NCBI RefSeq assembly: GCF_001422375.1
Contig: NZ_LMMU01000001.1
Location: 1,421,481 to 1,485,480 of the forward strand
Direction of reading: 5' to 3'
Length of the DNA stretch: 64,000 nt
DNA from: Methylobacterium sp. Leaf99
GTDB taxonomy: Bacteria; Pseudomonadota; Alphaproteobacteria; Rhizobiales; Beijerinckiaceae
Both the position numbers and the translations under genes were made by a program. How positions within the stretch are numbered: the first letter of the stretch is position 1; every line of letters begins with the position of its first letter. A model generated the notes under the pieces. That model was not told where the DNA came from. It made no database searches and worked only from the letters and a program-made list of their open reading frames with translations. Shown piece by piece: positions 18,704 to 36,119 of the stretch.

Positions 18704-19498
18704 ATGAGCTTGGCAACAAGCCTGCCATCGGACTTCACTGAGCCCCTGCTCGACGTCGATGGCGTCACACTCCGGTACAAGACGCCCCATCATCTCGTCA
18801 CGGCCACCTACCGGGTCAGCTTCCAGGTGTTTCCGAGCGACCGGTTCGTCCTGCTCGGGCCATCGGGATGCGGAAAATCCACGCTCCTGAAATCGGTCGG
18901 CGGCTACATGGCCCCGACGGAGGGCCAGATCCGCCTGAAGAATCAGGTCGTCACCGAGCCCGGACCGGACCGGATGATGGTGTTCCAGGAATTCGATCAG
19001 CTCCTGCCCTGGAAGACCGTGCGCCAGAACGTGGCCTTCGCCCTCGAGGCGTCGGGGCGCCTGGCGGGCCGCGCCGCCGACGAGCGGGCGATGCACTACA
19101 TCGACAAGGTCAACCTCAGCGCCTTCGCCGACAGCTATCCGCACATGCTGTCGGGCGGCATGAAGCAGCGCGTGGCCATCGCCCGGGGCATGGCGATGGA
19201 ACCCGACATCCTCCTGATGGACGAACCCTTCGCGGCGCTGGACGCCCTGACGCGCCGGCGGATGCAGGACGAGCTCCTGGCCCTGTGGGAGGAGACCCGC
19301 TTCACGGTCCTGTTCGTCACCCACTCGATCCCCGAGGCCATCAAGATCGGCTCGCGCATCCTGCTGCTCTCGCCCCATCCCGGCGAGGTCAAGGCCGAGC
19401 TCAACACGGCCGGCTCACCGCAGGACGTGCTCCTGCTGGAGCAACGCATCCACCAAATGCTGTTTTCCGAAGAGATCAAGGAGGCAGAGAATGTCTAG
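18704..19498 (+). CDS. ABC importer ATPase, Ssu/Tau (sulfonate/nitrate) family
   Basis: A 264-residue ATPase of the taurine/sulfonate/nitrate importer group. Walker A GPSGCGKST is at residues 52-60, the Q-loop in VFQEFDQLLPWKTV, the signature LSGGMKQRVAIARG and Walker B ILLMDEPFAALD follow. It energises uptake through the permease encoded next, whose start overlaps by 8 bases; the substrate-binding protein gene lies 840 bases downstream beyond the regulator. The ATG at 18704 has a strong GGGAGG site. Substrate is inferred as a sulfonate from the catabolic genes nearby. Confidence 0.92.
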   Translation: MSLATSLPSDFTEPLLDVDGVTLRYKTPHHLVTATYRVSFQVFPSDRFVLLGPSGCGKSTLLKSVGGYMAPTEGQIRLKNQVVTEPGPDRMMVFQEFDQLLPWKTVRQNVAFALEASGRLAGRAADERAMHYIDKVNLSAFADSYPHMLSGGMKQRVAIARGMAMEPDILLMDEPFAALDALTRRRMQDELLALWEETRFTVLFVTHSIPEAIKIGSRILLLSPHPGEVKAELNTAGSPQDVLLLEQRIHQMLFSEEIKEAENV

Positions 19499-20390
19499 GA
19501 CCGCGAAGGCCCTCGTGTCTCCCATCGTCCTGCGGCCGAGCCGCCCCGAGATCGTCCGCGACAGCGGCGGCAGCTACGGGGGCGCCATCGTCGAGAAGCC
19601 CCTCTCCACGGTCGAACGGCTCTACAACCATGCCTGGCTGCGCAAGCTCGTCATCCTGGCGGCGCTGGCCCTGATCTGGGAGGCCTACGGGCGCATCCTC
19701 GACAACGATCTCCTGTTCCCGACCTTCTCCGCCACGGTGACGGCCTTCGCCCACGGGGTCGCGGACGGGACGCTGCCGATGCGGGCCTGGGGATCGATCA
19801 AGGTGCTGCTAATCGGCTACGGCCTCGGAATCGTCCTGGCGACGGTGCTCACCGGCATCGCCATCAGCTCGCGCATCGGCACCGACTTCCTCGAGACGAT
19901 GACGTCGATGTTCAACCCCCTGCCGGCCATCGCCCTGCTTCCCCTGGCCCTGATCTGGTTCGGCCTCGGCAACGGCAGCCTCATCTTCGTGCTGGTCCAT
20001 TCCGTGACCTGGGCCATCGCCCTGAACACGCATTCGGGCTTCCTCTCGGTCAGTCGCACCCTGAAGATGGTCGGCCGCAACTACGGCCTGCGCGGCGGCA
20101 GGCTGATCACCAAGATCCTGATCCCCGCCGCCTTCCCGAGCATCCTCACGGGCCTGAAGGTCGGCTGGGCCTTCGCCTGGCGCACCCTCATCGCGGCGGA
20201 ACTCGTCTTCGGCGTCAGTTCGGGTTCGGGCGGCCTCGGATGGTTCATCTTCGAGAACAAGAACATGCTCGACATCCCCAACGTCTTCGCCGGGCTGCTG
20301 ACGGTGATCATCATCGGTCTCTGCGTCGAGAACCTGATCTTCCAGACCATCGAGCGCCACACCCTGCAGCGCTGGGGCATGCAGGCGTGA
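19491..20390 (+). CDS. ABC importer permease, Ssu/Tau family
   Basis: A 299-residue inner-membrane permease with about six hydrophobic segments. The EAA-loop region (ALNTHSGFLSVSRTLKMVGRNYG ... ILIPAAFPSILTGLKVGWAFAW) is characteristic of the binding-protein-dependent transport family of taurine, sulfonate and nitrate importers. It starts inside the ATPase gene, so the two are translationally coupled. The N-terminal 50 residues before the first membrane helix are longer than in SsuC and TauC and have no recognisable domain. Confidence 0.92.
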   Translation: MSRTAKALVSPIVLRPSRPEIVRDSGGSYGGAIVEKPLSTVERLYNHAWLRKLVILAALALIWEAYGRILDNDLLFPTFSATVTAFAHGVADGTLPMRAWGSIKVLLIGYGLGIVLATVLTGIAISSRIGTDFLETMTSMFNPLPAIALLPLALIWFGLGNGSLIFVLVHSVTWAIALNTHSGFLSVSRTLKMVGRNYGLRGGRLITKILIPAAFPSILTGLKVGWAFAWRTLIAAELVFGVSSGSGGLGWFIFENKNMLDIPNVFAGLLTVIIIGLCVENLIFQTIERHTLQRWGMQA

Positions 20391-20471
20391 CCGTCCCGGG
20401 CACAGAGCGCCCACGCGGGATCTGAAGCGACCGGCCGGGGCGGGAGCTGTCCCACCCGTCCGGAGCTCCGG

Positions 20472-21242
20472 TCAATCGAGGTCGGAGCGGTAGTGCAGCG
20501 CCGCCGTCCAGCTCTGACGGTACTCGATCGGCGCGCCCGCCAGGGACACCGCCACCCGGCGCACGAGGAGCAGGGGCGCCGCCGGCGGGCAGCCGAGGGC
20601 GGCCGCGACGGCGGCGCTCGCGCCGTCGGTGGCGATCTCGTCCCGCGCCCGCGCCACGGTCTGGCCGCAGCGGGCCTGATACAGCACGTAGATCTCCTCC
20701 AGCATCTCGGCGCCCGGCTCGGCGTGGAGTTGCGCGAACAGGTCCGCCGGCAGCGCGATGCGCTCGTAGACCATCGGGACGCCGTCCTCGCTGCGGGTGC
20801 GCAGCAGGACCAGCGCCTTCGCGCCCGCCGCCAGACCGAGCCGGGCGCGGTCCTCGGCATCGGCCCGGGCCATTCCGGCCGCGAGGACGTGGGCCACGGG
20901 GTGGAACGGCCGGCCGTCGCCGTGGACGAAGCGCAGGAAGCGGAAGCGGGAGCGATCGCTCGAGTGCGGCACCACCTGCGTGCCACGCCCGTGCTGGCGC
21001 TCCAGCAGCCCCTGCCCGACGAGATCCTCCATCGCCTTGCGGATCGTCCCGATGGAGACGCCGAGATCCGTGGCGAGCTGCGGCTCGCTCGGCAGGTAGC
21101 TGCCGGGCGTCCAGATTCCGTCCACGATCCGGCGCAGCATCAGGTCGCGCGCCTGCAGGTAGAGCGGGCGGCTCGCCAGGGGCTCGTTTTGGTGCGCAGG
21201 ATTGGGGGCGGTTCGGATGGCGTTCGGCAAGGCGCAACTCAT
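20472..21242 (-). CDS. GntR/HutC-family transcriptional regulator
   Basis: A 256-residue repressor-type regulator. Residues about 25-90 form the GntR winged helix (PLYLQARDLMLRRIVDGIWTPGSYLPSEPQLATDLGVSIGTIRKAM...GLLERQHGRGT); residues about 95-256 form a UTRA ligand-binding domain, placing it in the HutC subfamily. It is encoded divergently from the substrate-binding protein gene, and a perfect 12-base palindrome overlaps its own start codon, which suggests autoregulation. It is a paralogue of the second regulator at 32,161. The effector may be the imported sulfonate or a derivative such as sulfolactate. Confidence 0.9.
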   Translation of the reverse strand: MSCALPNAIRTAPNPAHQNEPLASRPLYLQARDLMLRRIVDGIWTPGSYLPSEPQLATDLGVSIGTIRKAMEDLVGQGLLERQHGRGTQVVPHSSDRSRFRFLRFVHGDGRPFHPVAHVLAAGMARADAEDRARLGLAAGAKALVLLRTRSEDGVPMVYERIALPADLFAQLHAEPGAEMLEEIYVLYQARCGQTVARARDEIATDGASAAVAAALGCPPAAPLLLVRRVAVSLAGAPIEYRQSWTAALHYRSDLD

Positions 21243-21250
21243 ATATATGA
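21239..21250. promoter_or_regulatory. Putative GntR operator at the regulator/SBP divergent promoter
   Basis: TCATATATATGA is a perfect 12-base palindrome overlapping the start codon of the GntR gene. It resembles the TCTTATATAAGA site near 28,050. A possible -35 TTGACA (21261-21266) with a weak TATCGT -10 follows on the plus strand, so binding here could repress both divergent directions. Confidence 0.55.
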
Positions 21251-21335
21251 CATATGACCGTTGACAGCGATCGTCCCGAGGCTATCGTGGCCCTCGGCAC
21301 CGGACCAGAGAATTCGGGCAGACGAGGAGGAACAC

Positions 21336-22355
21336 ATGGCGCTCGGCCGTCTCAATCGGCTCTGCGGAGCCGCAGCCCTCGTCACGGCGAGCCTGCTGGC
21401 CGGATCGGGAGCAGCCTGGGCCGAGGCGTCCGTCGTGCGCCTCGCCAAGCAGTTCGGCATCTCCTACCTGCCCCTCACCGTGATGGAGGAGGAGCGGCTC
21501 ATCGAGAAGCATGCCCGCCAGCAGGGGCTTGACCTGACGACCGAGTGGCTGCGCTTCACCGGCGGCTCCGGCATGAACGAAGCCCTGCTGTCGGGAAACC
21601 TCGACTTCGCCGCTGGCGGCGTCGGGCCGATGCTGACGATCTGGGGCCGCACCCGGGGCAACATGATGGTCAAGGGCGTGGCGGCCTTGAACGCCATGCC
21701 GCTCTGGCTGGTCACGGTGAATCCGGCGGTGAAATCGATCAAGGACTTCACCGAGAAGGACAAGATCGCCCTGCCGACGGCCAAGAGCTCGATCCAGGCG
21801 ATCACCCTGCAGATGGCCGCCGAGAAGGCCTTCGGACCCGGCCAGCAGGGCAAGCTCGATCCGCTCACGGTCTCCATGGGCCACCCCGACGCCCAGACGG
21901 CGATGCTCGGCGGCCGCTCCGAGATCACCGCGCATTTCGGCGCCCCGCCGTTCCAGGAGGTGGAGCTGAAGGACCCCAAAGCCCGCAAGGTGCTCGACAG
22001 CTACGACGTGCTCGGCGGGCCGCACACCTTCAACCTCGTCTGGGCGAGCAGCCGCTTCGTCTCCGCCAACCCGAAGATCGTCGCCGCCTTCCGGGGCGCC
22101 CTGGAGGAGAGCCTGGCCCTGATCAAGGCGGAGCCCAACCGGGTCGCCGCCCTCTGGATCAAGGCGGAGAACGCCAAGCTGACCGAGGCCGAAGCGGTGG
22201 ACATTATCCGCGCGCCGCAGACCGGCTGGACCAGCGCGCCCCTGAACATGCTCGCCTATCTCGACTACATGAACCGCGCCGGCCTTGTCAGCGCCAAGGC
22301 CGCCGACCAGGGCGAGCTGTTCTTCCCCGGCGCCGTCACGAAGGCGGAGCGCTGA
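21336..22355 (+). CDS. ABC importer substrate-binding protein, NMT1/SsuA-like
   Basis: A 339-residue periplasmic binding protein with a clear signal peptide (residues 1-27, ending GSGAAWAEA). The fold signature (VRLAKQFGISYLPLTVMEEERLIEKHARQQGL, LSGNLDFAAGGVGPMLTIWGRTRG, TPNPKIV-like NPKIVAAFRGALEES) places it in the taurine/sulfonate/nitrate binding group. The ATG at 21336 has GAGGAGG 6 bases upstream; a longer in-frame start at 21261 lies inside the promoter. It leads the operon with the succinate-dehydrogenase-like genes, directly linking uptake to oxidation of the imported compound. Confidence 0.9.
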   Translation: MALGRLNRLCGAAALVTASLLAGSGAAWAEASVVRLAKQFGISYLPLTVMEEERLIEKHARQQGLDLTTEWLRFTGGSGMNEALLSGNLDFAAGGVGPMLTIWGRTRGNMMVKGVAALNAMPLWLVTVNPAVKSIKDFTEKDKIALPTAKSSIQAITLQMAAEKAFGPGQQGKLDPLTVSMGHPDAQTAMLGGRSEITAHFGAPPFQEVELKDPKARKVLDSYDVLGGPHTFNLVWASSRFVSANPKIVAAFRGALEESLALIKAEPNRVAALWIKAENAKLTEAEAVDIIRAPQTGWTSAPLNMLAYLDYMNRAGLVSAKAADQGELFFPGAVTKAER

Positions 22356-22358
22356 GGC

Positions 22359-23144
22359 ATGAACGCTCCGATCCCGAACGCGGCGCTGAACGGTCGTGCG
22401 GTCGAGCCCGCGACCGGGGCGATGCTGACGGTGCGCATCCGGCGGGACGGCGGCTTTCAGACCTTCGCCGTGGCGCGGCGCCCGGCCCAGACCATCCTCG
22501 ACGTGGTCACCGAGATCCAGCGCGAGCAGGACCCGACGCTGGCCTACCGCTTCGCCTGCCGGGTCGGCATGTGCGGATCCTGCGCCATGATGGTGAACGG
22601 CCGCCCGCGCTGGACCTGCCGCACCCGGGTCGCGGCGGTGGCGGCGAGCGACGGCCTGACGCTCGAACCCCTGCGCAACCTGCCGGTGGTCAAGGATCTG
22701 GCCGTCGACATGGAGCCGTTCTTCGAGAAGTGGACGGCCGCGCACGGCGCCTTCGAGCCCGGCGATGCACCGACCGTGGACTTCGCCGTGGTGGCGCCGG
22801 ACTCGCCCGAGCGCCGGGCCGTGGATGCCGGCATCGAGTGCATCAATTGCGGGGTCTGCTACGCCGCCTGCGACGTGGTGACGTGGAACCCGGACTACCT
22901 CGGGCCGGCCGCCCTCAACCGGGCCTGGACCCTGGTGAACGACGTCCGCGACCGGGGCCGGGAGGCACGCCTCGAGGCCGTCTCGGGCGATGCCGGCTGC
23001 CAATCCTGCCACACCCACATGAGCTGCACCGAGAGCTGCCCCAAGGCGCTGGCGCCGACCTTCGCCATCGCGGGCCTCAAGCGCGAGACCGCCAAAGCGT
23101 CCCTCCGGCGGCTCGGCGCCCGTCGCTTCCGGAGGTCGGCATGA
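22359..23144 (+). CDS. Succinate dehydrogenase/fumarate reductase-like iron-sulfur subunit
   Basis: A 261-residue SdhB/FrdB-like protein. The [2Fe-2S] domain motif CRVGMCGSCAMMVNG with the later WTC is near residues 65-90; the ferredoxin-like domain has CINCGVCYAAC and CQSCHTHMSCTESCPKALAP for the [4Fe-4S] and [3Fe-4S] clusters. It would pass electrons from the flavoprotein to the membrane subunits and quinone. It starts 3 bases after the binding-protein gene and overlaps the next gene by 4 bases (ATGA). Genuine TCA-cycle sdhB normally sits with sdhCDA; its place in a sulfonate locus points to a different substrate. Confidence 0.92.
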   Translation: MNAPIPNAALNGRAVEPATGAMLTVRIRRDGGFQTFAVARRPAQTILDVVTEIQREQDPTLAYRFACRVGMCGSCAMMVNGRPRWTCRTRVAAVAASDGLTLEPLRNLPVVKDLAVDMEPFFEKWTAAHGAFEPGDAPTVDFAVVAPDSPERRAVDAGIECINCGVCYAACDVVTWNPDYLGPAALNRAWTLVNDVRDRGREARLEAVSGDAGCQSCHTHMSCTESCPKALAPTFAIAGLKRETAKASLRRLGARRFRRSA

Positions 23145-23470
23145 ACCCGCTCCTCTACGTCGCCCAGCGCGGCACCGCCGTGATCCTGGCCGTCGCCGTG
23201 GCGGTCCATCTCGGCACCATCCTGTACGCCGTGCGCGGCGGCCTCACCGCCGGGGAGATCCTCGGCCGCACCCAGGGCAACCGCGCCTTCCTCGCCTTCT
23301 ACGGTGTCTTCGTCATCGCGGCGGCGATCCATGCGCCCATCGGCCTGCGCAGCATCCTGCGCGAGTGGACGGGCTGGCGCGGGCGTTCCCTCGACGGCGC
23401 GATGCTCGCCGTCTCGGCGCTCCTGGTCGTCCTCGGGCTGCGCGCCGCCCTCGCGGTCTACATCGCATGA
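23141..23470 (+). CDS. SDH/FRD-like membrane anchor subunit, first
   Basis: A 109-residue integral membrane protein with three hydrophobic helices (about residues 12-31, 50-68 and 87-107) and buried histidines (AVHLGT, AAAIHAPIGLRS). Size, topology and placement directly after the iron-sulfur gene fit a membrane anchor of a succinate-dehydrogenase-type complex, which binds haem b and quinone. It overlaps both neighbours by 4 bases. Sequence similarity alone is modest, so the call rests on context as well. Confidence 0.8.
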   Translation: MNPLLYVAQRGTAVILAVAVAVHLGTILYAVRGGLTAGEILGRTQGNRAFLAFYGVFVIAAAIHAPIGLRSILREWTGWRGRSLDGAMLAVSALLVVLGLRAALAVYIA

Positions 23471-23841
23471 ATGCCGGGACGCAGGCGGCCCCCCTGCCCC
23501 GGCGCGTCGCGGCGCGCCCGCGCGCCGGCCTTGCCGCCGCCCTCCTGCACCGCCTGTCAGGCATCGCCCTCGCGCTGTTCCTGCCGATGCACTTCATCGC
23601 CCTCGGGACCGCGCTGCAGGGGGCCGACCGCCTGGAGAGCTTCCTCGGGCTGACCCATAACGGCTTCGTGCGCACGGCCGAATGGGGCCTCGTCAGCGCG
23701 CTGGCCCTGCATCTCGTCCTCGGACTGCGCGTGCTCGCCATCGAGTGGTTCGCCACGCGCGAGCGGACGGCGCTCATGGTCTCGCTCTGCGTGGCGGCGG
23801 CTCTGGCGGTCGGGCTCCTGTTCCTGCTCGGCGGCGCCTGA
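23467..23841 (+). CDS. SDH/FRD-like cytochrome b membrane subunit, second
   Basis: A 124-residue protein with three membrane helices. It carries the SdhC-type motif LLHRLSGIALALFLPMHFIALG near residues 26-47 and a further histidine in ALHLVLGLRVL near 80, suitable for haem b ligation and quinone binding. It overlaps the preceding subunit gene (ATGA) and is followed 40 bases later by the hydratase alpha gene. With the two genes before it and the flavoprotein downstream, it completes a four-subunit quinone-linked dehydrogenase. Confidence 0.86.
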   Translation: MNAGTQAAPLPRRVAARPRAGLAAALLHRLSGIALALFLPMHFIALGTALQGADRLESFLGLTHNGFVRTAEWGLVSALALHLVLGLRVLAIEWFATRERTALMVSLCVAAALAVGLLFLLGGA

Positions 23842-23881: not shown

Positions 23882-24754
23882 ATGGACCTCGATCTCTCCG
23901 AAGTCGAAGCCTTGTGCAGGGACCTCTACGTCCGTGCCCTGAAACTCCTGCCCCCCGACATCAAGGCGGGCTTCGCCGACCTGGCGCGGGAGGAGACCAG
24001 CGCCACCGGCCGGGCGATCCTCGGCACCATGGTCGAAAACATCGCGGTGGCCGAGCGCACGCGCAACATCCTGTGCCAGGACACCGGCATTCCGATCTAC
24101 AACGTGGTGATCGGGCGCGACGTGCGCTTCGACGGCGCCGACCTCAAGGCCGCCATCCGGCGCGGCTGCGCGCGCGCCACCACCGAGCATTCCCTGCGCT
24201 CCTCCGTGGTCCACCCGATCACCCGCGTGAACGAGCAGACCTCCTGCGGCATCCGCGTGCCGATCATCCATGTGGATTTCGACGACCGGCCCGAGACGGT
24301 CGCGATCGAGATGATCCCGAAGGGGTCGGGCTCGGAGAACGGCTCGTTCCTGCAGATGCTGCTGCCCTCCGACGGCATCAACGCGGTCAAGCGCTTCGTC
24401 ATCGACCGGGTGATCGAGCTCGGCGGCCGCGTCTGCCCGCCGACCATCGTGGGCGTCGGCATCGGCGGCACCTCGGACCTGTGCATGCACCTCGCCAAGG
24501 TGGCGGCGACCCGCAAGCTGCGCACCGCCTGTTCCGACCCCGACGGCGCCCGGATCGAGGCGGAGCTGTCGCGCGCCGTCAATGAGCTCGGCATCGGGCC
24601 GCAGGGGCTCGGCGGGCGCTCCACGAGCTTCGCCGTCCATGTCGAGATCGCCGCGACCCACATCACCCAGAATCCGGTGGCGGTGAACATCCAGTGCCAT
24701 TCGGCCCGCCGCGCCCGAGCGACCTTCACGCCGGGCGGCATCGCCTTCGACTGA
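23882..24754 (+). CDS. Class I fumarase / L-tartrate dehydratase-type hydratase, alpha subunit
   Basis: A 290-residue protein of the TtdA/fumarase N-terminal family. The cluster cysteines appear in NILCQDTGIPIYNVVIG, GRVCPPTIVGVGIGGTSD and NIQCHSARRA, giving the oxygen-sensitive [4Fe-4S] hydro-lyase centre. The family reversibly hydrates C4 trans-dicarboxylates or dehydrates tartrate. Lying between an SDH-like complex and sulfolactate genes, the enzyme is inferred to hydrate 3-sulfoacrylate to 3-sulfolactate. The beta subunit follows after a spacer made almost entirely of 19-base repeats. Confidence 0.92.
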   Translation: MDLDLSEVEALCRDLYVRALKLLPPDIKAGFADLAREETSATGRAILGTMVENIAVAERTRNILCQDTGIPIYNVVIGRDVRFDGADLKAAIRRGCARATTEHSLRSSVVHPITRVNEQTSCGIRVPIIHVDFDDRPETVAIEMIPKGSGSENGSFLQMLLPSDGINAVKRFVIDRVIELGGRVCPPTIVGVGIGGTSDLCMHLAKVAATRKLRTACSDPDGARIEAELSRAVNELGIGPQGLGGRSTSFAVHVEIAATHITQNPVAVNIQCHSARRARATFTPGGIAFD

Positions 24755-24819
24755 TCTAAACGTCCGCGACTGATCCAAGCGTCCGCGACGGATCCAAGCG
24801 TCTGCGACTGATCCAAGCG
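24751..24819 (+). repeat. Tandem 19-bp repeat between hydratase alpha and beta genes
   Basis: Units start at 24751, 24770, 24789 and 24808 (last one partial): CTGATCCAAGCGTCCGCGA is the commonest form, with two to three substitutions among copies. The alpha-gene stop codon lies in the first unit and the array fills most of the 85-base gap before the beta gene. Confidence 0.93.
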
Positions 24820-24839: not shown

Positions 24840-25445
24840 ATGCACCACGTTCTCGACATGCCGATCGATGCCGCGCGGGCGCGCGCCCTGCGGATCGGCG
24901 ACACCGTCACCCTGCGCAAAACCCTGTTCGGCATCCGGGACGCGACCCTGATCCACATGTTCGACCAGGGCCGCCGCACGCATCTCGACCTGTCGGGTCA
25001 CGCCATCATCCACACGGCGCCCAACGTCCACCGCGTGCCGGTCTCGGCCGAGGCCCCCGTCGGCTACGCGCCGTTCTGCATCGGCACCACCACCTCCATG
25101 CGGATGGAGCGCTTCACCGACGCCCTGATGCGGCGGGAAGGCGTGCGCCTCATCGTCGGCAAGGGCGGCATGGGCCCGAAGACCCTCGACGCCTTCGCCG
25201 AACAGGGCGGCGCCTACCTCGCCATCGTCGGCGGCGCCGCCGCCCTGGAGACCACCTGGATCGAGCGGATCGAGGACATCGACCTCGACGACCTCCACCC
25301 CGAGAGCCTGTGGAAGTTCGCGATCCGCGATTTCGGGCCCCTCCTCGTCGGCATGGATTCCCACGGCGGATCGCTCTTCGCCGAGGTCCAGCGCGACGTC
25401 GCGGGCCGGCGCGACGCCATCATCGAGAGCCTGGGAGCCACCTGA
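24840..25445 (+). CDS. Class I fumarase / L-tartrate dehydratase-type hydratase, beta subunit
   Basis: A 201-residue TtdB/fumarase C-terminal family protein. Motifs include the LSGHAIIHTAP region, GTTTSMRMERF (commonly GPTTSxRM in the family), VGKGGMGPKTL and SLWKFAIRDFGPLLVGMDSHGGSLF. It looks closer to TtdB than to the single-chain fumarases. The proline-to-threonine change in the GPTTS substrate loop could reflect a different acid group on the substrate, but this is only suggestive. Its stop overlaps the flavoprotein start by one base. Confidence 0.9.
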   Translation: MHHVLDMPIDAARARALRIGDTVTLRKTLFGIRDATLIHMFDQGRRTHLDLSGHAIIHTAPNVHRVPVSAEAPVGYAPFCIGTTTSMRMERFTDALMRREGVRLIVGKGGMGPKTLDAFAEQGGAYLAIVGGAAALETTWIERIEDIDLDDLHPESLWKFAIRDFGPLLVGMDSHGGSLFAEVQRDVAGRRDAIIESLGAT

Positions 25446-28061: not shown

Positions 28062-28220
28062 ATGATGCCCGATCAAGTGCGCCTGTGGTACCGGACAGAT
28101 GCGTGCACCGTAGGCGCTCACCTAGGCGCGATTTGTCATTTTTTTGCATCCCGTTCGGCCGCTCATGCGGCCCGGGCGGAACGACGCGGTGCTTCCTCGA
28201 TTGACGCGTCGAACTATGCT

Positions 28221-28234
28221 GTCTTATACAAGAC
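28221..28234. promoter_or_regulatory. Putative GntR operator upstream of suyA
   Basis: GTCTTATACAAGAC is a 14-base dyad (only the central step is imperfect) located 47 bases before the suyA start codon, where a bound repressor would overlap the promoter. Confidence 0.65.
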
Positions 28235-28598: not shown

Positions 28599-28623
28599 GG
28601 TGGCGATGCCCGGAGAGAACATC

Positions 28624-29886
28624 ATGAACGTCCCCGAGACCACCTCCCCCTTCGTCGGCGGAGCCCCCGACCAGTTCGCCACCACGGCCCTCGGCTCCGG
28701 CCGCGCCTCCGCGGATACCAAGGCCGCCACCTTCATGGGCTGGCGCCGCGAGAACGGCCGCGTCGGCGTGCGCAACCACGTCGTGCTTCTGCCCCTCGAC
28801 GACCTGTCGAATGCCGCCTGCGAGGCCGTGGCCAACTCCATCAAGGGCACGATGGCCCTGCCGCACGCCTATGGCCGCCTGCAGTTCGGCGCGGATCTCG
28901 ACCTCCACTTCCGCACCCTGATCGGCATCGGCTCGAACCCGAACGTCGCGGCCGTCGTGGTCATCGGCATCGAGGACCAGTGGACCAACCGGATCGTCGA
29001 GGGCATCGCCAAGACCGGCAAGCCCGTGGTCGGGTTCGGCATCGAGGGCCACGGCGACATCGCCACCATCGCCAAGGCCAGCTACCAGGCCAAGCGCTTC
29101 GTGCAATGGGCGACCGAACTGCCCCGCGAGGAATGCCCGATCGCCGACCTCTGGATCTCGACGAAATGCGGCGAGTCCGACACCACCACCGGGCTTTCCT
29201 CCTGCCCCACCGTGGGCAACCTCTACGACAAGCTGATCCCGCAGGGGATCTACGGCGTGTTCGGCGAGACCTCGGAGATCACCGGCGCCGAGCACCTCTG
29301 CCGCGAGCGCGCCGCCACGCCCGAGATCGGCGACAAGTGGTTCGCCATGTGGAAGTCCTACCAGGACGACGTCATCGAGGCCCACAAGACCGACGATCTC
29401 TCCGATTCGCAGCCGACCAAGGGCAACATCCTCGGCGGTCTCAGCACCATCGAGGAGAAGGCACTCGGCAACCTCGAGAAGATCGGCCACGACAGCCGCT
29501 TCATCGACGCGCTCCAGCCGGCGGAGGCGCCCGCCAAGGGGCCCGGCCTGTACTACATGGACACCTCGTCGGCGGCCGCCGAATGCATCACCCTGATGGC
29601 GGCGGCGGGCTACGTCGTCCACACCTTCCCCACCGGCCAGGGCAACGTCATCGGCAACCCCATCGTCCCGGTGATCAAGATCACCGGAAACCCGCGCACG
29701 GTCCGCACCATGGGCGAGCACATCGACGTCGACGTCTCGGGCGTGCTCACCCGGGAGATGACCATCCCGCAGGCCGGCGACGCGCTCATCGACATGGTGG
29801 TCCGGACGGCGAACGGGCGTCTCACGGCCGCCGAATCCCTCGGCCACCGTGAGTTCGTGATGACGAAGCTGTACCGCAGCGCCTGA
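28624..29886 (+). CDS. suyB: (2R)-3-sulfolactate sulfo-lyase, large subunit SuyB
   Basis: A 420-residue UxaA C-terminal-family protein: [27 protein letters not shown] at the start, cysteine-containing [21 protein letters not shown] in the middle, and the C-terminal [21 protein letters not shown]. It is the catalytic partner of SuyA in desulfonation of sulfolactate. Three in-frame starts are possible (GTG 28600, ATG 28606, ATG 28624); I chose 28624 because GGAGAG lies 6 bases before it. A strong hairpin follows the stop. Confidence 0.9.
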
Positions 29887-29927: not shown

Positions 29928-30062
29928 TCTCCCGTTCGGACAGGCAGCGCCGTACCCGCCCACGATCGTGGATAATCGGCCGCGACGGCCCCTCGCACCA
30001 TGCCTCCCCTCGCCAAGCAGAGCCGAAGCGCCATGCCGACGACAGAAGCCTCCCAGGGTCGC

Positions 30063-31004
30063 ATGCCGAAGATCGTCATCAGCGAATTCATGGACGAAGC
30101 CGCCATCGCGGCCGAACTCGGCGGGTTCGCAACCCTCTACGATCCGGGCCTCGTCGACCGGCCCGCCGACCTGATGGCGGCGCTGGCGGGCGCGGACGCC
30201 CTGGTGGTCCGCAACCGCACGCAGGTGACCGCGGCGCTCCTGGCCGCCGCACCCGACCTCAAGGTGGTCGGACGCCTCGGGGTCGGTCTCGACAACATCG
30301 ATCTCGCGGCGTGCGGCGCGCGCGGCGTCGCGGTCTATCCCGCCACCGGCGCCAACGACGTCGCGGTCGCCGAGTACGTCATCGGCACGGCGATGCTGCT
30401 CCTGCGCGGCGCCTACGGCGCGACCGACGCGGTGGCGGCGGGAACCTGGCCGCGCAACGCGCTGATGGGCCGGGAGATCTCTGGCAAGCGCCTCGGCCTC
30501 GTCGGCTTCGGCGCCATCGCCCGCGAGACCGCGCGCCGCGCCGTCGCCCTGGGCATGCAGGTCGCGGCCCACGATCCCCTCCTGCCGGCCGACGATCCGG
30601 CGTGGCGGCCGGCCTACGGCACGATCGCGCGCCTGGATCTCGACGCCCTCCTCGCCGGCAGCGACGTGTTGTCCCTGCACGTGCCGCTGACGCCCGAGAC
30701 GCGGGGGATGATCGATGCGCGGGCCCTCGCCCGGATGCCGGCCGGGGCCGTTCTGATCAACGCCGCGCGGGGCGAGGTGGTCGAGGTCGCCGCGGTGGCG
30801 GCGGCCCTGCGCGGCGGACATCTCGGCGGGGCCGCCCTCGACGTCTTCCCGCAGGAACCCCTGGACGCGGCGGCGGGCGCCGTGTTCCGGGACCTGCCCA
30901 ACCTCATCCTGACTCCGCACATCGCCGGGGTGACGCGGGAATCGAACGTGCGCGTCTCGGCCGTCACGGCGCAGGCCGTGCGCCGTCACCTCGCCGAGGG
31001 CTGA
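30063..31004 (+). CDS. slcC: Probable (S)-sulfolactate dehydrogenase SlcC
   Basis: A 313-residue D-2-hydroxyacid dehydrogenase family enzyme. Landmarks are VVGRLGVGLDNIDLAAC, the NAD-binding GKRLGLVGFGAIARETARRA near residue 140, the catalytic Arg in LINAARGEVVE, Glu in FPQEPL and His in LTPHIAGVTRES. In sulfolactate degraders SlcC oxidises (S)-sulfolactate to sulfopyruvate, which ComC reduces to the (R)-isomer used by SuyAB. I chose the ATG at 30063 (MPKIVISEFMDE); starts at 30000 and 30033 would add 21 or 11 residues. comC follows at once. Confidence 0.8.
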   Translation: MPKIVISEFMDEAAIAAELGGFATLYDPGLVDRPADLMAALAGADALVVRNRTQVTAALLAAAPDLKVVGRLGVGLDNIDLAACGARGVAVYPATGANDVAVAEYVIGTAMLLLRGAYGATDAVAAGTWPRNALMGREISGKRLGLVGFGAIARETARRAVALGMQVAAHDPLLPADDPAWRPAYGTIARLDLDALLAGSDVLSLHVPLTPETRGMIDARALARMPAGAVLINAARGEVVEVAAVAAALRGGHLGGAALDVFPQEPLDAAAGAVFRDLPNLILTPHIAGVTRESNVRVSAVTAQAVRRHLAEG

Positions 31005-31009: not shown

Positions 31010-31999
31010 ATGACGACCCTGACCCTCGCCGAAGCCCACACCCTCGTGGCCGATGCCCTGGTCCGCTGCGGGACGCTGCCGCCCGCGGCACGGAGCGTCG
31101 CCCGGGCCCTCGTCGGCGCCGAGGCCGACGGACTGAAGGGCCACGGCCTCTCGCGGGTGGCGTCCTACGCGGCACAGGTCCGGGCCGGGAAGGTGGTGGG
31201 CGACGCGGCGGTCGCGACGACGCGGGCCCGGCCCGGCCTCCTCGCGGTGGATGCCGCCCACGGCTTCGCTTATCCGGCCCTCGACGCGGTCATCGAGCAG
31301 CTTCCGCCGATGGTCCGGGACCAGGGCATCGCGGCGGCCGGCATCCGCCGCTCCCACCATTGCGGCGCGGCGGGGCGGCCCGTGGAGGCCCTGGCCGAGG
31401 CCGGTCTCGTGGCGATCCTGTTCGCCAACACCCCGGCGGCCATGGCGCCCTGGGGCGGGTCGCGGGCGGTGTTCGGGACCAACCCCCTTGCCTTCGCCTG
31501 TCCCCTGCCCGGGCGCGCGCCCATCGTCATCGACCTGTCCCTCTCGAAGGTGGCGCGCGGCTCGATCATGGCCGCCCGGCAGCGCGGCGAGGCCATTCCC
31601 GAGGGCTGGGCCCTCGATGCCGAGGGCCGGCCGACGACCGATCCGGGCGCGGCCCTGAAGGGCACCATGGTGCCCCTCGGCGATGCCAAGGGCACCGCGC
31701 TCGCCCTGATGGTGGAGCTGCTCGCCGCCGGCCTGACGGGCGGGCGCTTCGCCGCCGAGGCGAGCTCGTTCCTCGATGCCGAGGGCGATCCGCCGGGGAC
31801 CGGCCAACTCGTCCTCGCCATCGCGGCGGATGCGTTCGGGCCCGGCGCCCTAGCCCGGTTCGCCGATCTCGCGGGCTCCATCGAGGCGCAGGACGGGGCG
31901 CGCCTGCCCGGCGCGCGCCGCCTCGCCCTCCGGACCCGGGCCGAGGCCGAAGGACTCACCGTCCCGGATGCCCTCGTGGCCGAGATCGGGGCGCTCTGA
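31010..31999 (+). CDS. comC: Probable (R)-sulfolactate dehydrogenase ComC
   Basis: A 329-residue protein of the Ldh2/malate-L-sulfolactate dehydrogenase family, which has its own NAD(P)-binding fold. Conserved features are EADGLKGHGLSRV, the catalytic His region AAGIRRSHHCGAAGRPVE, APWGGSRAVFGTNPLAFA and GDAKGTALALMVELLAAGLTGG. The family includes ComC, which interconverts sulfopyruvate and (R)-sulfolactate. It starts 5 bases after slcC, matching the slcC-comC pairing of known (S)-sulfolactate racemising pathways. Confidence 0.85.
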   Translation: MTTLTLAEAHTLVADALVRCGTLPPAARSVARALVGAEADGLKGHGLSRVASYAAQVRAGKVVGDAAVATTRARPGLLAVDAAHGFAYPALDAVIEQLPPMVRDQGIAAAGIRRSHHCGAAGRPVEALAEAGLVAILFANTPAAMAPWGGSRAVFGTNPLAFACPLPGRAPIVIDLSLSKVARGSIMAARQRGEAIPEGWALDAEGRPTTDPGAALKGTMVPLGDAKGTALALMVELLAAGLTGGRFAAEASSFLDAEGDPPGTGQLVLAIAADAFGPGALARFADLAGSIEAQDGARLPGARRLALRTRAEAEGLTVPDALVAEIGAL

Positions 32000-32160: not shown

Positions 32161-32889
32161 ATGGAACGCACAGGTGGCAATGCGGTCGGCTTCCGGCCGC
32201 TCTATCGACAGGTCTACGACACGCTCCTGCGCCGCCTCGCCGATGCGGTCTGGCAGCCGGGCCAGATCCTGCCGAGCGAAGGCGTGCTCGCCGCCGAACT
32301 CGGCGTCAGTCAGGGGACGGTGCGGAAAGCCCTCGACGCGCTCACCGCCGACAGCCTCCTGGTGCGCCGCCAGGGGCGCGGCACCTTCGTGGCCGAGCAC
32401 GACGACAAGCAGAGCGTCTTCCGCTTCTTCAAGCTGAGGCCCGACGGGGCGGTCGCCGGGACGCCGTCGAGCCGCGTCGTCTCCATCGCGGAGGCCGCCG
32501 CCACCCTCGACGAGCGCGACCGGCTCGCCCTCCTGCGCAACGCGCGCGTGGTGCGGCTGGAGCGGGTGCGCTCCCTCGACGGGCGCGTCTGCCTGTTCGA
32601 GACGATCACCGTCCCGTCGAGCCTGTTTCCCGGCATGGCCGGGATGGCGCTTCCGAACACGCTCTACAGCCTCTACGCGACCCGGTTCGGCATCACGATC
32701 GCGACGGCGCACGAGCGCCTGAAGGCGATCGCGCTCAGCCCCGACAAGGCGGATCTGCTGGGCAAGCCGGCGGGAACCCCGGTCCTCGAAGTCGACCGCG
32801 TCGCCGTCGATCTCGAGGACCGCCCGGTGGAGTGGCGCCTGTCGACCTGCCTCACCGAGGACATCCATTACGCCTCCGTCCTGCGATGA
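32161..32889 (+). CDS. Second GntR/HutC-family transcriptional regulator
   Basis: A 242-residue HutC-subfamily regulator with an N-terminal winged helix (PLYRQVYDTLLRRLADAVWQPGQILPSEGVLAAELGVSQGTVRKAL) and a UTRA effector domain. It is clearly a paralogue of the regulator at 20,472. An upstream in-frame ATG at 32002 would add 53 residues with no family similarity, so 32161 is preferred although its ribosome-binding site is not strong. It lies between comC and sorA on the same strand and may be co-transcribed with them. It might sense a different pathway intermediate, such as sulfolactate, or oppose the first regulator. Confidence 0.88.
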   Translation: MERTGGNAVGFRPLYRQVYDTLLRRLADAVWQPGQILPSEGVLAAELGVSQGTVRKALDALTADSLLVRRQGRGTFVAEHDDKQSVFRFFKLRPDGAVAGTPSSRVVSIAEAAATLDERDRLALLRNARVVRLERVRSLDGRVCLFETITVPSSLFPGMAGMALPNTLYSLYATRFGITIATAHERLKAIALSPDKADLLGKPAGTPVLEVDRVAVDLEDRPVEWRLSTCLTEDIHYASVLR

Positions 32890-32927: not shown

Positions 32928-34133
32928 ATGATCGGGACCGATCGCAGAACGCTCCTGAGGCAGGCCGGGGCCGGGCTTCTCGGTGCCGCCCTCGCACCCT
33001 TCGCGGCCCGGGCCGGCGAGGCCGTCACCCTGCCCTTCGGCAACGGCGAGCGCCCCCTCGTGGCCTATCCGGGCAAGCGCCCGCTGCTGCAGATGACCGC
33101 GCGGCCGCCACAGCTGGAGACGCCGTTCGCGGTCTTCGACGCGGGCGCGATCACCCCGAACGACGCCTTCTTCGTGCGCTATCACCTCGCCGACATCCCG
33201 ACCTCCATCGATCCCGACAGCTTCCGCCTGACGGTCGCGGGGCATGTCGATGGGCCGGTCTCGCTGTCCCTCGCCGAGCTCAAGGCGATGCCGAACGCCG
33301 AGATCGTCGCGGTCAACCAGTGCTCGGGCAATTCCCGCGGCTTCGTCGAGCCCCGCGTCGCCGGCGGCCAGCTCGCCAACGGCGCCATGGGCAATGCCCG
33401 CTGGACGGGCGTGCCGCTGAAAGCCGTGCTCGACCGCGCCGGCGTGAAGGCCGGCGCGGTGCAGGTCGTGTTCGGGGGCCTCGACGGCCCGGTCCTCCCG
33501 GAAACCCCGGACTTCGCCAAGGCGCTCGCCCTCGATCACGCCCGCGACGGCGAAGTGATGCTGGCCTGGGCCATGAACGGGGAGGATTTGCCCTGGCTCA
33601 ACGGCTATCCCCTGCGCCTCGTGGTCCCGGGCTTCTACGGCACCTACTGGGTCAAGCACCTCGACGCGATCACGGTGCTGGACAAGCCCTACGAGGGCTT
33701 CTGGATGAAATCGGCCTATCGCATTCCCGACACGGCCTGCGCCTGCGTCGAGCCCGGCCAGACCCCCGAGGCCACCGTGCCGATCAACCGCCTGACCATC
33801 CGGTCCTTCGTGACGAACCTCGCCGACGGGGCCACGATCCGGGCCGGACGGACGGACCTGCGCGGCATCGCCTTCGACGGCGGCTCCGGCATCGCGGCGG
33901 TCTCCGTCTCCGTCGACGACGGCCGCACCTGGACCGGGGCGATGCTCGGGCCCGATCTCGGGCGCTATTCCTTCCGGCCCTGGACCCTGTCGGTCGACCT
34001 CCCGGCCGGTTCGCACGCCCTCCGGGTCCGGGCGACGGGCAACGACGGGGGCGTCCAGCCGATGGCCGCGCGCTGGAACCCACCGGGCTACATGCGCAAC
34101 GTCATCGAGACCGTCCGCGTGCGGGCAGCGTGA
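32928..34133 (+). CDS. sorA: Sulfite dehydrogenase, molybdopterin subunit SorA
   Basis: A 401-residue periplasmic sulfite oxidase-family enzyme. The N-terminus (DRRTLLRQAGAGLLGAALAPFAARAGE) is a Tat-type signal. The molybdenum-ligating Cys132 lies in VNQCSGNSRGFVEP, followed by GARWTGVPLKAVL-like NARWTGVPLKAVLD, YPLRLVVPGFYGTYWVKHL, and a C-terminal dimerisation domain. It oxidises sulfite to sulfate and passes electrons to a c-type cytochrome, encoded next. This is the expected final step after SuyAB. The ATG at 32928 was chosen; an earlier in-frame ATG (32886) would put 14 extra residues before the Tat motif. Confidence 0.92.
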   Translation: MIGTDRRTLLRQAGAGLLGAALAPFAARAGEAVTLPFGNGERPLVAYPGKRPLLQMTARPPQLETPFAVFDAGAITPNDAFFVRYHLADIPTSIDPDSFRLTVAGHVDGPVSLSLAELKAMPNAEIVAVNQCSGNSRGFVEPRVAGGQLANGAMGNARWTGVPLKAVLDRAGVKAGAVQVVFGGLDGPVLPETPDFAKALALDHARDGEVMLAWAMNGEDLPWLNGYPLRLVVPGFYGTYWVKHLDAITVLDKPYEGFWMKSAYRIPDTACACVEPGQTPEATVPINRLTIRSFVTNLADGATIRAGRTDLRGIAFDGGSGIAAVSVSVDDGRTWTGAMLGPDLGRYSFRPWTLSVDLPAGSHALRVRATGNDGGVQPMAARWNPPGYMRNVIETVRVRAA

Positions 34134-34144
34134 GGGCAGCCAGG

Positions 34145-34519
34145 ATGACGATGCGTTCTCAGACGATCCTGCCGGCGAGCCTCGGGTTGTTGGCAACTCT
34201 GGGGGTCTTGGTGAGTATGGGGGTCTTGGCGAGTATGTGGGTCTTGGCGAGCCTCCCCGCGATCGCCGCGCCGCGGACCTACGAACTCCCCAAACCGACG
34301 GCAGCGTTGCGGCCGGCGGCCGGCCGGGAATCCGGGTTCGAGGCGGCCCAGGCCAATTGCATGACCTGCCATTCCGTCGACTACATCGCCATGCAGCCGC
34401 CGGGGAAGGGTGTTGCGTTCTGGACCAGTGAGGTGACGAAGATGACGAAGGTCTATCACGCCCCAATCAACGAGGCCGACGCCAGGGCCATCGCGGATTA
34501 CCTCGCCGCGGCGTACTAG
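34145..34519 (+). CDS. sorB: Sulfite dehydrogenase cytochrome c subunit SorB
   Basis: A 124-residue periplasmic monohaem c-type cytochrome: CMTCH at residues 72-76 and the axial Met in a short C-terminal helix region (VTKMTKVYHAPI). It follows sorA by 11 bases, as in SorAB systems, and carries electrons to the respiratory chain. The signal peptide is unusual: its hydrophobic core is built from three 18-base repeats (LGVLVSMGVLASMWVLAS). Confidence 0.88.
   Translation: MTMRSQTILPASLGLLATLGVLVSMGVLASMWVLASLPAIAAPRTYELPKPTAALRPAAGRESGFEAAQANCMTCHSVDYIAMQPPGKGVAFWTSEVTKMTKVYHAPINEADARAIADYLAAAY
34201..34254 (+). repeat. Three tandem 18-bp units in the sorB signal peptide
   Basis: Units at 34201-34218, 34219-34236 and 34237-34254 follow the form GGGGGTCTTGGCGAGTAT with one to four substitutions. 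They encode the hydrophobic core of the SorB signal peptide, and each unit adds or removes six residues in frame. Confidence 0.93.
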
Positions 34520-34620: not shown

Positions 34621-34863
34621 TTAGAGGATGGCGGTGATGAAGGCGGCGACCTGCGCATGAGCATTCGCGACCATCTGCGCCACGGGCTCGTCGGCGAAGT
34701 AGATCCGGCCCGCCGTCAGGGTCGCGGCGATCAGCCAGAATCCGATCAGAGCGACGCTGCGCGCGCGCCGGTCACCCGTCGCGGACGGGCCGTGGCAAGC
34801 GATCTCGACGGGTTCGCCGAACGGATCGAAGGCCATCGCCGGCTGGTCGCTACGCTTGCTCAT
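34621..34863 (-). CDS. Small single-pass membrane protein
   Basis: An 80-residue frame beginning MSKRSDQPAMAFDPFGEPVEIACHGP, with one hydrophobic segment (SVALIGFWLIAATLTAGRIYF) and a C-terminal tail. It has the look of a conserved short hypothetical protein, but I do not recognise a family. It lies on the opposite strand in the gap between sorB and the sulfate exporter gene. The ribosome-binding site is weak. Confidence 0.5.
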   Translation of the reverse strand: MSKRSDQPAMAFDPFGEPVEIACHGPSATGDRRARSVALIGFWLIAATLTAGRIYFADEPVAQMVANAHAQVAAFITAIL

Positions 34864-34997
34864 ACGCTTAGATGTCGCGCTTCGGGCTCGCTCGATCAAT
34901 GGATGCGTTTTGCGAAGATGTCCGCGGGCGGAGAGTGTTGTTCTCCGGGGGGCGGGACACGCAGAAGTTCCTTCCTCGTGCCTCAAGGGAAGGCACC

Positions 34998-36119
34998 ATG
35001 AGCGCCAAGGGCCTCGCGACGGCACGCGCCGGGACGGCGCAGCCGAGGATCGCGTCCGGCAAGATCGCCTCGCTCCTGCCGGGCATCCTCGTCTGCCTCG
35101 CCGTGACCCTGGCGTCCCTGGCCGTGCAGGCGATCGAGGAGCGCGCCACGGGCCATCCCTACATCGAGGCCCTCGTCATCGCGATCCTGCTCGGGATCGC
35201 CCTGCGCACCGTCTGGAGTCCGGGCGAGCGCTTCCGGGCCGGCATCGCGTTCTCGGCCAAGCAGGTTCTGGAACTCGCCGTCACCCTGCTGGGCGCCTCC
35301 GTCAGCCTCGGCGCCATCGTCGCGTCGGGGACAAGCCTTCTCGTGGGCATCGTCGCCACGGTGGTCCTGGCGATCGTCGCGAGCTACGCCATCTGCCGGG
35401 TCCTCGGCCTGCCCGCCCGGATGGCGATCCTGGTGGCCTGCGGCAACGCCATCTGTGGCAACTCGGCCATCGCCGCCGTGGCGCCGGTGATCGGGGCCGA
35501 CAGCAAGGACGTGGTCGCGGCCATCGCCTTCACGGCCGTCCTCGGCGTGCTGATGGTCCTGGGCCTGCCCCTGTTCATCCCCCTCGTGGGCCTGTCGGAG
35601 CACCAGTACGGCACGCTCGCGGGCCTCACGGTTTACGCCGTGCCGCAGGTGCTCGCCGCCACGGTCCCGGTCGGCATCCTGGCGACGCAGGTCGGCACCC
35701 TGGTCAAGCTGGTCCGCGTCCTGATGCTCGGGCCCGTCGTGGTCGCGTTCTCGTTCATCGCGCCCTACCTGCCGCCGGAGGGCGCATCTTCCGGGCAGGG
35801 GGCGTCTTCCAAGAAAGACGCATCCCCGAAGGGCAGGCCCGGACGCCTCGGCTTCTTCAAGATCGTGCCCTGGTTCATCCTCGGCTTCCTGGCGCTCGCG
35901 ACCCTGCGCTCCCTGGGGATCGTCCCGGACGCGGCCACGCCGCCGATCACCCGGCTGGCGGGCCTGCTCACCGTGGTGTCGATGGCGGCGCTCGGGCTCG
36001 GCGTCGACGTCCGCGTGCTGGCCCGGGTCGGCGGCCGGGTGACCCTGGCGGTGACCGGCTCGCTGATCGTCCTCCTCGCCGTCAGCCTGTCGCTGATCTG
36101 GGCCTTGCGGATTTCGTAA
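34998..36119 (+). CDS. YeiH-family (UPF0324) putative sulfate exporter
   Basis: A 373-residue membrane protein with about ten hydrophobic helices. Family motifs include LVIAILLGIALRTVW, ELAVTLLGASVSLGAI, ILVACGNAICGNSAIAAVAPVIGA and AVPQVLAATVPVG. The family is annotated as a putative sulfate exporter and is repeatedly found beside taurine and sulfonate degradation genes. A Gly/Ser/Lys-rich stretch (about residues 260-280) marks a cytoplasmic loop. I chose the ATG at 34998, which has an AAGGGAAGG site; the longer reading from 34872 is not supported. It would remove sulfate produced by SorAB or sulfite directly. Confidence 0.88.
   Translation: MSAKGLATARAGTAQPRIASGKIASLLPGILVCLAVTLASLAVQAIEERATGHPYIEALVIAILLGIALRTVWSPGERFRAGIAFSAKQVLELAVTLLGASVSLGAIVASGTSLLVGIVATVVLAIVASYAICRVLGLPARMAILVACGNAICGNSAIAAVAPVIGADSKDVVAAIAFTAVLGVLMVLGLPLFIPLVGLSEHQYGTLAGLTVYAVPQVLAATVPVGILATQVGTLVKLVRVLMLGPVVVAFSFIAPYLPPEGASSGQGASSKKDASPKGRPGRLGFFKIVPWFILGFLALATLRSLGIVPDAATPPITRLAGLLTVVSMAALGLGVDVRVLARVGGRVTLAVTGSLIVLLAVSLSLIWALRIS

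Follow-up and report, generated by a model that had tools for sequence, protein, structure and literature searches.

A gene island of Methylobacterium sp. Leaf99 predicted to degrade 3-sulfopropanoate by relatives of succinate dehydrogenase and fumarase

What role could genes related to those for succinate dehydrogenase (SDH) and fumarase play among genes for sulfonate degradation? This question is raised by a 64-kb stretch of the genome of Methylobacterium sp. Leaf99 (hereafter, the window), in which positions 18704-36119 hold an island of 19 genes, 17 on the plus strand and two on the minus strand. Gene content and its conservation in other genomes indicated that this conserved module probably imports 3-sulfopropanoate and routes it via 3-sulfoacrylate and 3-sulfolactate to pyruvate and sulfite, with the sulfite then being oxidized to sulfate. 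The substrate and the two front-end reactions, including the direction in which they run, are inferred from protein family, gene context and a sequence signature of the flavoprotein. A first-pass annotation of the window had already interpreted the island as a sulfonate analogue of the steps from succinate to malate; this interpretation, of which the chemistry is a prediction, was supported by linkage, interleaving and co-occurrence of the genes concerned. The island consists of the following features, with positions given in the window and scores compared with curated cut-offs.

18704..19498, plus strand: ATPase of an ATP-binding cassette (ABC) importer, Ssu/Tau/nitrate type (PF00005; best NCBIfam match taurine ATPase, 202 bits, below the cut-off of 357)
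19491..20390, plus strand: ABC importer permease (PF00528; SaoP/SsuC/TauC-like, below cut-offs)
20472..21242, minus strand: GntR/UTRA regulator 1 (family match)
21336..22355, plus strand: sulfonate-type periplasmic binding protein (SsuA_fam 71.2 bits, below the cut-off of 163.5)
22359..23144, plus strand: SdhB-like iron-sulfur subunit of the predicted 3-sulfopropanoate dehydrogenase (dhsB 192 bits, above the cut-off of 88)
23141..23470, plus strand: SDH membrane anchor 1 (PF01127)
23467..23841, plus strand: SDH membrane anchor 2 (PF01127)
23882..24754, plus strand: class I fumarase-like hydratase, alpha subunit, predicted sulfoacrylate hydratase (PF05681)
24748..24819, unstranded: 19-base tandem repeat of 3.8 copies between the hydratase genes (repeat found in the window)
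24840..25445, plus strand: class I fumarase-like hydratase, beta subunit (PF05683)
25445..27175, plus strand: SdhA-like flavoprotein, predicted catalytic subunit of the 3-sulfopropanoate dehydrogenase (FAD_binding_2 and Succ_DH_flav_C)
27214..28149, minus strand: TauE-type sulfite/sulfonate exporter (PF01925 from residue 72)
28281..28598, plus strand: SuyA, small subunit of sulfolactate sulfo-lyase (SAF domain; synteny)
28606..29886, plus strand: SuyB, large subunit of sulfolactate sulfo-lyase (GD_AH domains; synteny)
30000..31004, plus strand: SlcC-like (S)-sulfolactate dehydrogenase (2-hydroxyacid dehydrogenase)
31010..31999, plus strand: ComC-like (R)-sulfolactate dehydrogenase (best NCBIfam match L-sulfolactate dehydrogenase, 164.6 bits, below the cut-off of 500)
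32161..32889, plus strand: GntR/UTRA regulator 2 (family match; likely binds the palindromes described below)
32928..34133, plus strand: SorA sulfite dehydrogenase (NCBIfam 691.4 bits, above the cut-off of 600)
34145..34519, plus strand: SorB cytochrome c subunit (NCBIfam 120.9 bits, above the cut-off of 93)
34998..36119, plus strand: YeiH-type putative sulfate exporter (PF03601 over its cut-off; NCBIfam YeiH 122.5 bits, below 232.6)

All gene types named in the first-pass annotation were recovered at their coordinates by open reading frame (ORF), Pfam and NCBIfam evidence, and the SDH-like complex was indeed complete, with an iron-sulfur subunit, two Sdh_cyt anchors and a flavoprotein. The two GntR/UTRA regulators had not been listed before. 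Overlaps reported earlier were also found, of 8 bases between the ATPase and permease genes and of 4 bases each between the genes for the iron-sulfur subunit and anchor 1 and between those for the two anchors; in addition, the final base of the fumB stop codon is the first base of the flavoprotein start codon. Since its Pfam match begins only at residue 72, the TauE frame that opens at 28149 probably extends too far at the N-terminal end and has its true start further in, and one palindrome falls within the N-terminal codons of this annotated frame. The genome that holds the island measures approximately 4.65 Mb, and among the best 80 of 585 flavoprotein relatives the closest named ones were from Methylobacterium. 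M. radiotolerans JCM 2831 also has the island, on its plasmid pMRAD01.

In the proposed route, the Ssu/Tau-type importer would take up 3-sulfopropanoate, the SDH-like membrane complex would oxidize it to 3-sulfoacrylate and the fumarase-like hydratase would add water to the latter, yielding 3-sulfolactate. SuyAB would split 3-sulfolactate into pyruvate and sulfite, and SorAB would convert sulfite to sulfate. 3-Sulfopropanoate thus relates to succinate as sulfolactate does to malate, and the gene set joins the two. If the hydratase retains the stereochemistry of fumarase, its product would be (R)-sulfolactate, the form that SuyAB uses; in that case SlcC and ComC would act on (S)-sulfolactate of other origin or on the product of a hydratase with opposite handedness.

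Separation of the SDH-like and suy halves in most genomes had been named in advance as a result that would speak against such a route; they were instead found to be linked, interleaved and co-occurring. A search for flavoprotein relatives gave 585 loci, from which the best 80 (66-91% identity) were taken for this comparison; many of them were cut by contig ends, and 38 were full-length. Neighbouring genes were counted by tblastn with identity thresholds that we set, because a simple ORF caller missed many genes in GC-rich DNA. The fetched stretch (within 10 kb) carried suyA or suyB in 36/80 loci (22/38 full-length loci), and suy, slcC or comC in 45/80 (23/38). In loci L031, L046 and L060, suyAB and the genes for the complex, importer, FumAB, flavoprotein, SlcC and ComC formed one same-strand run. 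The suy half followed the SDH half in the window and in L005-L006; gene order varied by lineage while the set remained constant, and in L004, L007 and L008 the suy half lay on a different contig of the same genome. Read by eye, a SuyB orthologue (best match of at least 65% identity) was present in 73 of the 80 carrier genomes (38/40 and 35/40), some matches being partial at contig ends.

A base rate was obtained from 398 genomes sampled evenly across the phylum, in which 3-4 candidates per genome were scored (flavoprotein at E <= 1e-150, SuyB at E <= 1e-100, Xsc over its cut-off). Eleven genomes had the flavoprotein, 15 had SuyB and 26 had Xsc; the flavoprotein and SuyB occurred together in 5. 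SuyB or Xsc occurred in all 11 flavoprotein carriers versus 26 of 387 non-carriers (Fisher test without the own genome, 1e-11), and SuyB alone in 4/10 carriers versus 10/387 non-carriers with the own genome excluded (2e-4); both tests ignore kinship, the 11 carriers representing 8 genera, five from one family. Presence of SuyB without the flavoprotein, seen in 10 sample genomes, would be expected of an SDH half that is an optional entry into sulfolactate metabolism.

Thirteen carriers that lacked SuyB, 7 from the 80 and 6 from the sample, were analyzed for other exits. Xsc scored over its cut-off in 10 of them, and each of these ten genomes had a match of at least 144 bits to the sulfopyruvate decarboxylase alpha subunit, 7 of them over the cut-off of 147.95. 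In comparison, 3/10 genomes with Xsc and with neither flavoprotein nor SuyB reached 140 bits (Fisher 0.003); these controls were the same-class genomes among 16 in the sample, with two same-order and four same-phylum genomes left out. In G127, the decarboxylase gene lay approximately 3.4 kb from the flavoprotein gene. Sulfopyruvate decarboxylase and Xsc form an alternative exit from sulfolactate, and the decarboxylase matches in these Xsc genomes therefore suggested that another sulfolactate exit is usually present where SuyB is missing.

These exits bear on the possibility that the substrate of the complex is a different sulfonate (sulfosuccinate, for example, or a sulfoalkanoate that is longer or branched), whose oxidation and hydration would yield sulfolactate or set sulfite free directly. 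The importer and the TauE and SorAB genes would suit any sulfonate, and a thiamine pyrophosphate (TPP)-dependent enzyme in clusters of relatives, accompanied in Methylobacterium by a second binding protein, hints at more than one entry compound. However, SuyAB, SlcC and ComC point to a C3 sulfolactate intermediate, as do the sulfopyruvate decarboxylase-like genes and Xsc in 10/13 SuyB-negative carriers, and 3-sulfopropanoate is the simplest two-step precursor of sulfolactate. A different sulfonate substrate is thus considered quite improbable. The TPP-dependent enzyme itself, which resembles 2-hydroxyacyl-CoA (coenzyme A) lyase and acetolactate synthase, accompanied the flavoprotein gene in 25/80 loci (L004-L007, L009, L010 and others). 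Its gene was also found at 13724-15349 of L160, and in Methylobacterium a second sulfonate-type binding protein follows it. The island in the window lacks the enzyme, and comparison with NCBIfam, Pfam and the PDB indicated no clear function for it.

The palindromes that the first-pass annotation had described as shared between genes of the island correspond to GTCTTATAYAAGAC, which, with up to three mismatches, had only four occurrences in the 64 kb, at 18462, 21238, 28049 and 28221. The four sites are as follows.

18462..18475, unstranded: operator-like palindrome approximately 230 bases before the importer ATPase gene (2 mismatches)
21238..21251, unstranded: operator-like palindrome between regulator 1 and the SDH-like operon (3 mismatches)
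28049..28062, unstranded: operator-like palindrome, suy promoter, copy 1 (1 mismatch)
28221..28234, unstranded: operator-like palindrome, suy promoter, copy 2 (no mismatch)

The motif gave 8 strand-matches in the 64 kb; 100 shuffles averaged 0.75, and no shuffle reached 8. All sites with 0-1 mismatch in the own genome were confined to the island. In L005, L006, L007, L009 and L011 the palindrome stood at the same place before the importer ATPase gene (0-2 mismatches), and variants occurred near the place equivalent to 21238 in L004-L007 and L009, with only a weak variant in L004. The motif was also present at the suy half in L139 and L140, where the two halves are on separate contigs, and between the regulator 2 gene and suyA in L121 and L122, which represent sample genomes without a flavoprotein match. 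Its presence in the latter two indicated that GTCTTATAYAAGAC is likely the operator of a sulfolactate regulator and is shared by the SDH half. GntR regulator 2 likely controls both halves through these sites.

The flavoprotein is encoded together with an SdhB-type iron-sulfur subunit and membrane anchors, as in complex II. Signature residues, read against Escherichia coli SdhA and FrdA and numbered as in the window flavoprotein, were compared in 91 sequences, a set that includes the window's own and leaves out loci L084-L106, matches covering less than 85% of the query and translations with stops. Four catalytic residues, His240, Arg289, His353 and Arg387, which we take to be equivalent to His242, Arg286, His354 and Arg399 of E. 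coli SdhA, were kept in 91/91 flavoproteins. The histidine that links flavin adenine dinucleotide (FAD), presumably His45 in E. coli SdhA, was replaced by Cys50 in all 91. Glu258 replaced a Thr beside the active-site Glu, again in 91/91, and a loop next to the active site was inserted between His240 and Glu259, reading TR(M/I)TGT in nearly all sequences, with Arg251 in 90/91 and Lys in one. None of these three changes was found in the organism's own housekeeping SdhA (L120, counted apart from the 91). Against curated NCBIfam models, the flavoprotein scored at best 505 bits, below the cut-off of 718, with fumarate reductase TfrA as the closest family. The architecture is SDH-like, yet the flavoprotein is not classed as succinate dehydrogenase. 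An extra Arg close to a substrate carboxylate site could fit a sulfonate; the change from Thr to Glu258 adds an unexplained negative charge.

Several flavoprotein relatives carry the database name L-aspartate oxidase (among 120 of 8000 scored proteins). This identity was rejected for the island protein, which scored 343 bits against TIGR00551 (cut-off 452.75) and has an SdhB-like partner and anchors. A separate SDH flavoprotein and a FumC (749.6 bits, over the cut-off) are both encoded on contig C8 of the own genome, in which no class I fumarase match was found besides that of the island. The island genes for the SDH-like complex and the hydratase are therefore extra copies.

The hydratase is of the class I two-subunit fumarase/tartrate dehydratase type, with alpha and beta domains on two genes. 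Cys65, Cys185 and Cys272 of the alpha subunit, presumably the ligands of an iron-sulfur cluster, were kept in 60/60 sequences of the window type. The beta subunit scored below the tartrate dehydratase cut-off (144 versus 264 bits). An almost complete alpha subunit was available from 74 loci. In 60 of these it was of the window type, and its gene in most cases preceded that of the flavoprotein; the other 14/74 had a second class I hydratase (FumA2/FumB2), 33-36% identical, which was mostly encoded shortly after the flavoprotein and likewise kept the three alpha-subunit Cys (14/14). The same dehydrogenase complex is therefore paired with two different class I hydratases. Examples of the second kind are found on plasmids of Paracoccus versutus, Sulfitobacter sp. 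S190 and Pseudomonas sp. MPC6. Approximately 30 kb of P. versutus pTAV3 combine importer, complex, second hydratase, YeiH, TauE, ComC-, SlcC- and HpsN-type genes and suyAB. On the conjugative MPC6 plasmid (L159), genes for the iron-sulfur subunit, anchors, flavoprotein, FumA2 and FumB2 are followed by one for a CoA-acylating (methyl)malonate-semialdehyde dehydrogenase (13409-14899), and the stretch also holds TauE, YeiH, cytochrome c and sulfite oxidase genes.

No suyAB was found in the L159 stretch, and the MPC6 plasmid, which was searched without the chromosome, was not among the 13 plasmids with a SuyB match. Where the sulfo-lyase is absent, the second hydratase might conceivably hydrate the sulfonate-bearing carbon, so that sulfite would leave spontaneously, malonate semialdehyde would remain and no dedicated C-S lyase would be needed. 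This mechanism is regarded as doubtful: by tblastn, a full-length malonate-semialdehyde dehydrogenase occurred in two fetched loci only (L159 and L113) and a partial one at the end of L019, and the L113 genome also has SuyB and Xsc.

A number of results weigh against 3-sulfopropanoate oxidation by the island. Loss of the covalent FAD link impairs succinate oxidation in SDH/fumarate-reductase enzymes, and Cys50 speaks against the usual covalent SDH flavin; because the replacement was found in all 91 flavoproteins, the direction and potential of the predicted dehydrogenase are uncertain, and this is the main biochemical uncertainty. A Cys at the FAD-link site could suit a reductase, and the best family score was for fumarate reductase TfrA, both of which are compatible with a front end operating in reverse, in which sulfolactate would lose water and reduction of sulfoacrylate to 3-sulfopropanoate would serve as electron sink. 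Methylobacterium is aerobic, and the importer, SuyAB and the cytochrome-c-type sulfite dehydrogenase all fit complete oxidation in an aerobe, which makes such a reversal very unlikely.

Further adverse points concern the hydratase, the motif and gene distribution. The alpha subunit passed the curated 'fumarate hydratase' model (294.6 versus 276 bits). In the own genome, the palindrome with up to two mismatches gave 11 matches versus 13 for a reversed control. No sulfonate gene looked for was found on the fetched DNA of 16/80 loci (6/38 full-length); 7/80 carrier genomes had no SuyB, 4 of these 7 having Xsc over its cut-off, and neither SuyB nor Xsc reached its cut-off in 3 of the 13 SuyB-negative carriers (G024, G071 and G079). 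In the 398-genome sample, flavoprotein and SuyB overlapped in just 5/11 carriers, a set whose kinship the Fisher tests ignore.

Some of these points would also be expected if the SDH-like and hydratase genes acted on a dicarboxylate without a sulfonate group, such as succinate or methylsuccinate, and were no more than neighbours of a sulfolactate cluster. The intact SDH catalytic residues, the fumarate hydratase score, the 16/80 loci devoid of sulfonate genes looked for and the presence of TctC-type binding proteins in 25/80 loci and of DctA in 10/80 are in line with this explanation. However, gene orders were interleaved in distant lineages, SuyB was present in 73/80 carrier genomes, an operator was common to both halves, the island includes Ssu/Tau-type importer genes, and the own-genome SDH and FumC are located elsewhere. 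A dicarboxylate substrate was therefore judged unlikely, and breakdown of 3-sulfopropanoate is retained as the probable function.

The remainder of the predicted route matches known sulfolactate and sulfite metabolism. SorAB oxidizes sulfite, and the adjacent SorA and SorB genes both scored over curated cut-offs. The sulfo-lyase pathway is represented by adjacent suyA, suyB, slcC and comC genes together with a sulfite exporter gene; no curated model specific to SuyA or SuyB was among the matches, and their assignment is based on Pfam domains (SAF; GD_AH) and synteny. SuyB is 77% identical to a protein of P. versutus pTAV3, whose gene region has SlcC-, ComC- and HpsN-type genes. ComC is a likeness and not a proven member of its family, its 164.6 bits falling short of a curated equivalog threshold (500) that may be narrow. 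SuyAB cleaves (R)-sulfolactate, and SlcC and ComC act as a two-enzyme racemase via sulfopyruvate (PMC12421959; PMC11131964). HpsN, a dehydrogenase of 2,3-dihydroxypropanesulfonate (DHPS), is most similar to histidinol dehydrogenase (PMC11131964), and this resemblance suggests that the 'HisD' genes in 6/80 loci likewise have a sulfonate role.

3-Sulfopropanoate is formed from homotaurine (PMC11489063; PMC5320631), and gut fermenters make it from sulfoquinovose via DHPS (PMC11489063). Neither a homotaurine aminotransferase nor a 3-sulfopropionaldehyde dehydrogenase was found in the island, which likewise counts against the route, or among the ten recurrent neighbour families that were annotated, rarer neighbours having been annotated in part. 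Since an importer is present and no homotaurine genes were recognized in the island, 3-sulfopropanoate is probably taken from the medium.

Other neighbours of the complex varied. A sulfatase-family gene stood beside complex and hydratase genes in L039, L048, L057, L080 and L081. In L017, L019, L063, L064 and L083 the complex was accompanied by a mandelate-racemase/muconate-cycloisomerase-family gene, and all but one of these five loci also had a glyoxalase-like gene; SuyB was missing from the genomes of L017, L063 and L064, which had Xsc. Metagenome-assembled genome records L049, L032 and L080, labelled Mesoflavibacter, Cytophagales and Bordetella parapertussis, contained versions close to those of other proteobacteria, and these labels may be wrong. 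More distant flavoprotein relatives (47-54%) were found in Rhodococcus jostii RHA1 and on two haloarchaeal plasmids (plasmid records H15-H17); in R. jostii RHA1, a SuyB relative lies approximately 20 kb from the flavoprotein relative. Upstream of the island, at 14450-16617 of the window, translations resembled flagellar proteins that we take to be FliG and FlhB.

The first-pass annotation was aware of no previously described pathway of this kind. This appears to hold for the genes: no gene set for 3-sulfopropanoate breakdown was found among the matches listed in the open-licence literature searched. As for the intermediates, they had already been named: Jutta Mayer's Konstanz thesis, as cited by Chen et al. 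(2024; PMC11489063), proposed homotaurine degradation by Roseovarius nubinhibens via 3-sulfopropanoate, sulfoacrylate and sulfolactate. The passage concerned names no genes for the steps from sulfopropanoate via sulfoacrylate to sulfolactate, and the paper states that bacterial 3-sulfopropanoate breakdown had 'not previously been reported' (PMC11489063). The thesis proposal offers independent support for sulfoacrylate and sulfolactate as breakdown intermediates. According to the part of a 2026 review that addresses Bilophila wadsworthia, the mechanism of 3-sulfopropanoate breakdown in this organism is unclear (PMC12890257). What the present analysis adds is the assignment of genes, the module as a conserved unit and its distribution; the sulfolactate exits were already known. 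With a defined set of genes and a flavoprotein signature to diagnose it, the capacity for 3-sulfopropanoate breakdown could be found in genomes and metagenomes, and, if the prediction is true, the island would provide a clean case of citric-acid-cycle enzymes re-used on a sulfur analogue.

Compared with complex II and fumarase, which convert succinate via fumarate to malate, the island shares the architecture, the four catalytic residues and a class I hydratase with three conserved Cys. It differs in having Cys in place of the FAD-linking His, Glu in place of Thr and an inserted Arg loop, and in being a second copy, in a sulfonate gene context, beside housekeeping SDH and FumC. R. nubinhibens is known to use Xsc and CuyA and is not known to use SuyAB. 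Its proposed route and that predicted for the island have sulfopropanoate, sulfoacrylate and sulfolactate in common (PMC11489063). HpfXYZ of Enterococcus gilvus also handles 3-sulfopropanoate with enzymes related to succinate metabolism but, unlike the island, has the opposite role of making and excreting the compound (PMC11489063). Sulfolactate mineralization by SlcC/ComC-SuyAB and TauE is described for Chromohalobacter salexigens and Paracoccus pantotrophus, and P. wurundjeri has been proposed to use it too (PMC12421959; SlcC, ComC and SuyAB also in PMC11131964). The island likewise encodes SuyA, SuyB, SlcC, ComC and TauE, of which the same reactions are expected. Unlike in those systems, the window contains no upstream DHPS or sugar module, and the predicted entry is the SDH-like complex with the fumarase-like hydratase. 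The island thus appears to join exits from sulfolactate that were already known to a new and widespread entry module derived from relatives of SDH and fumarase.

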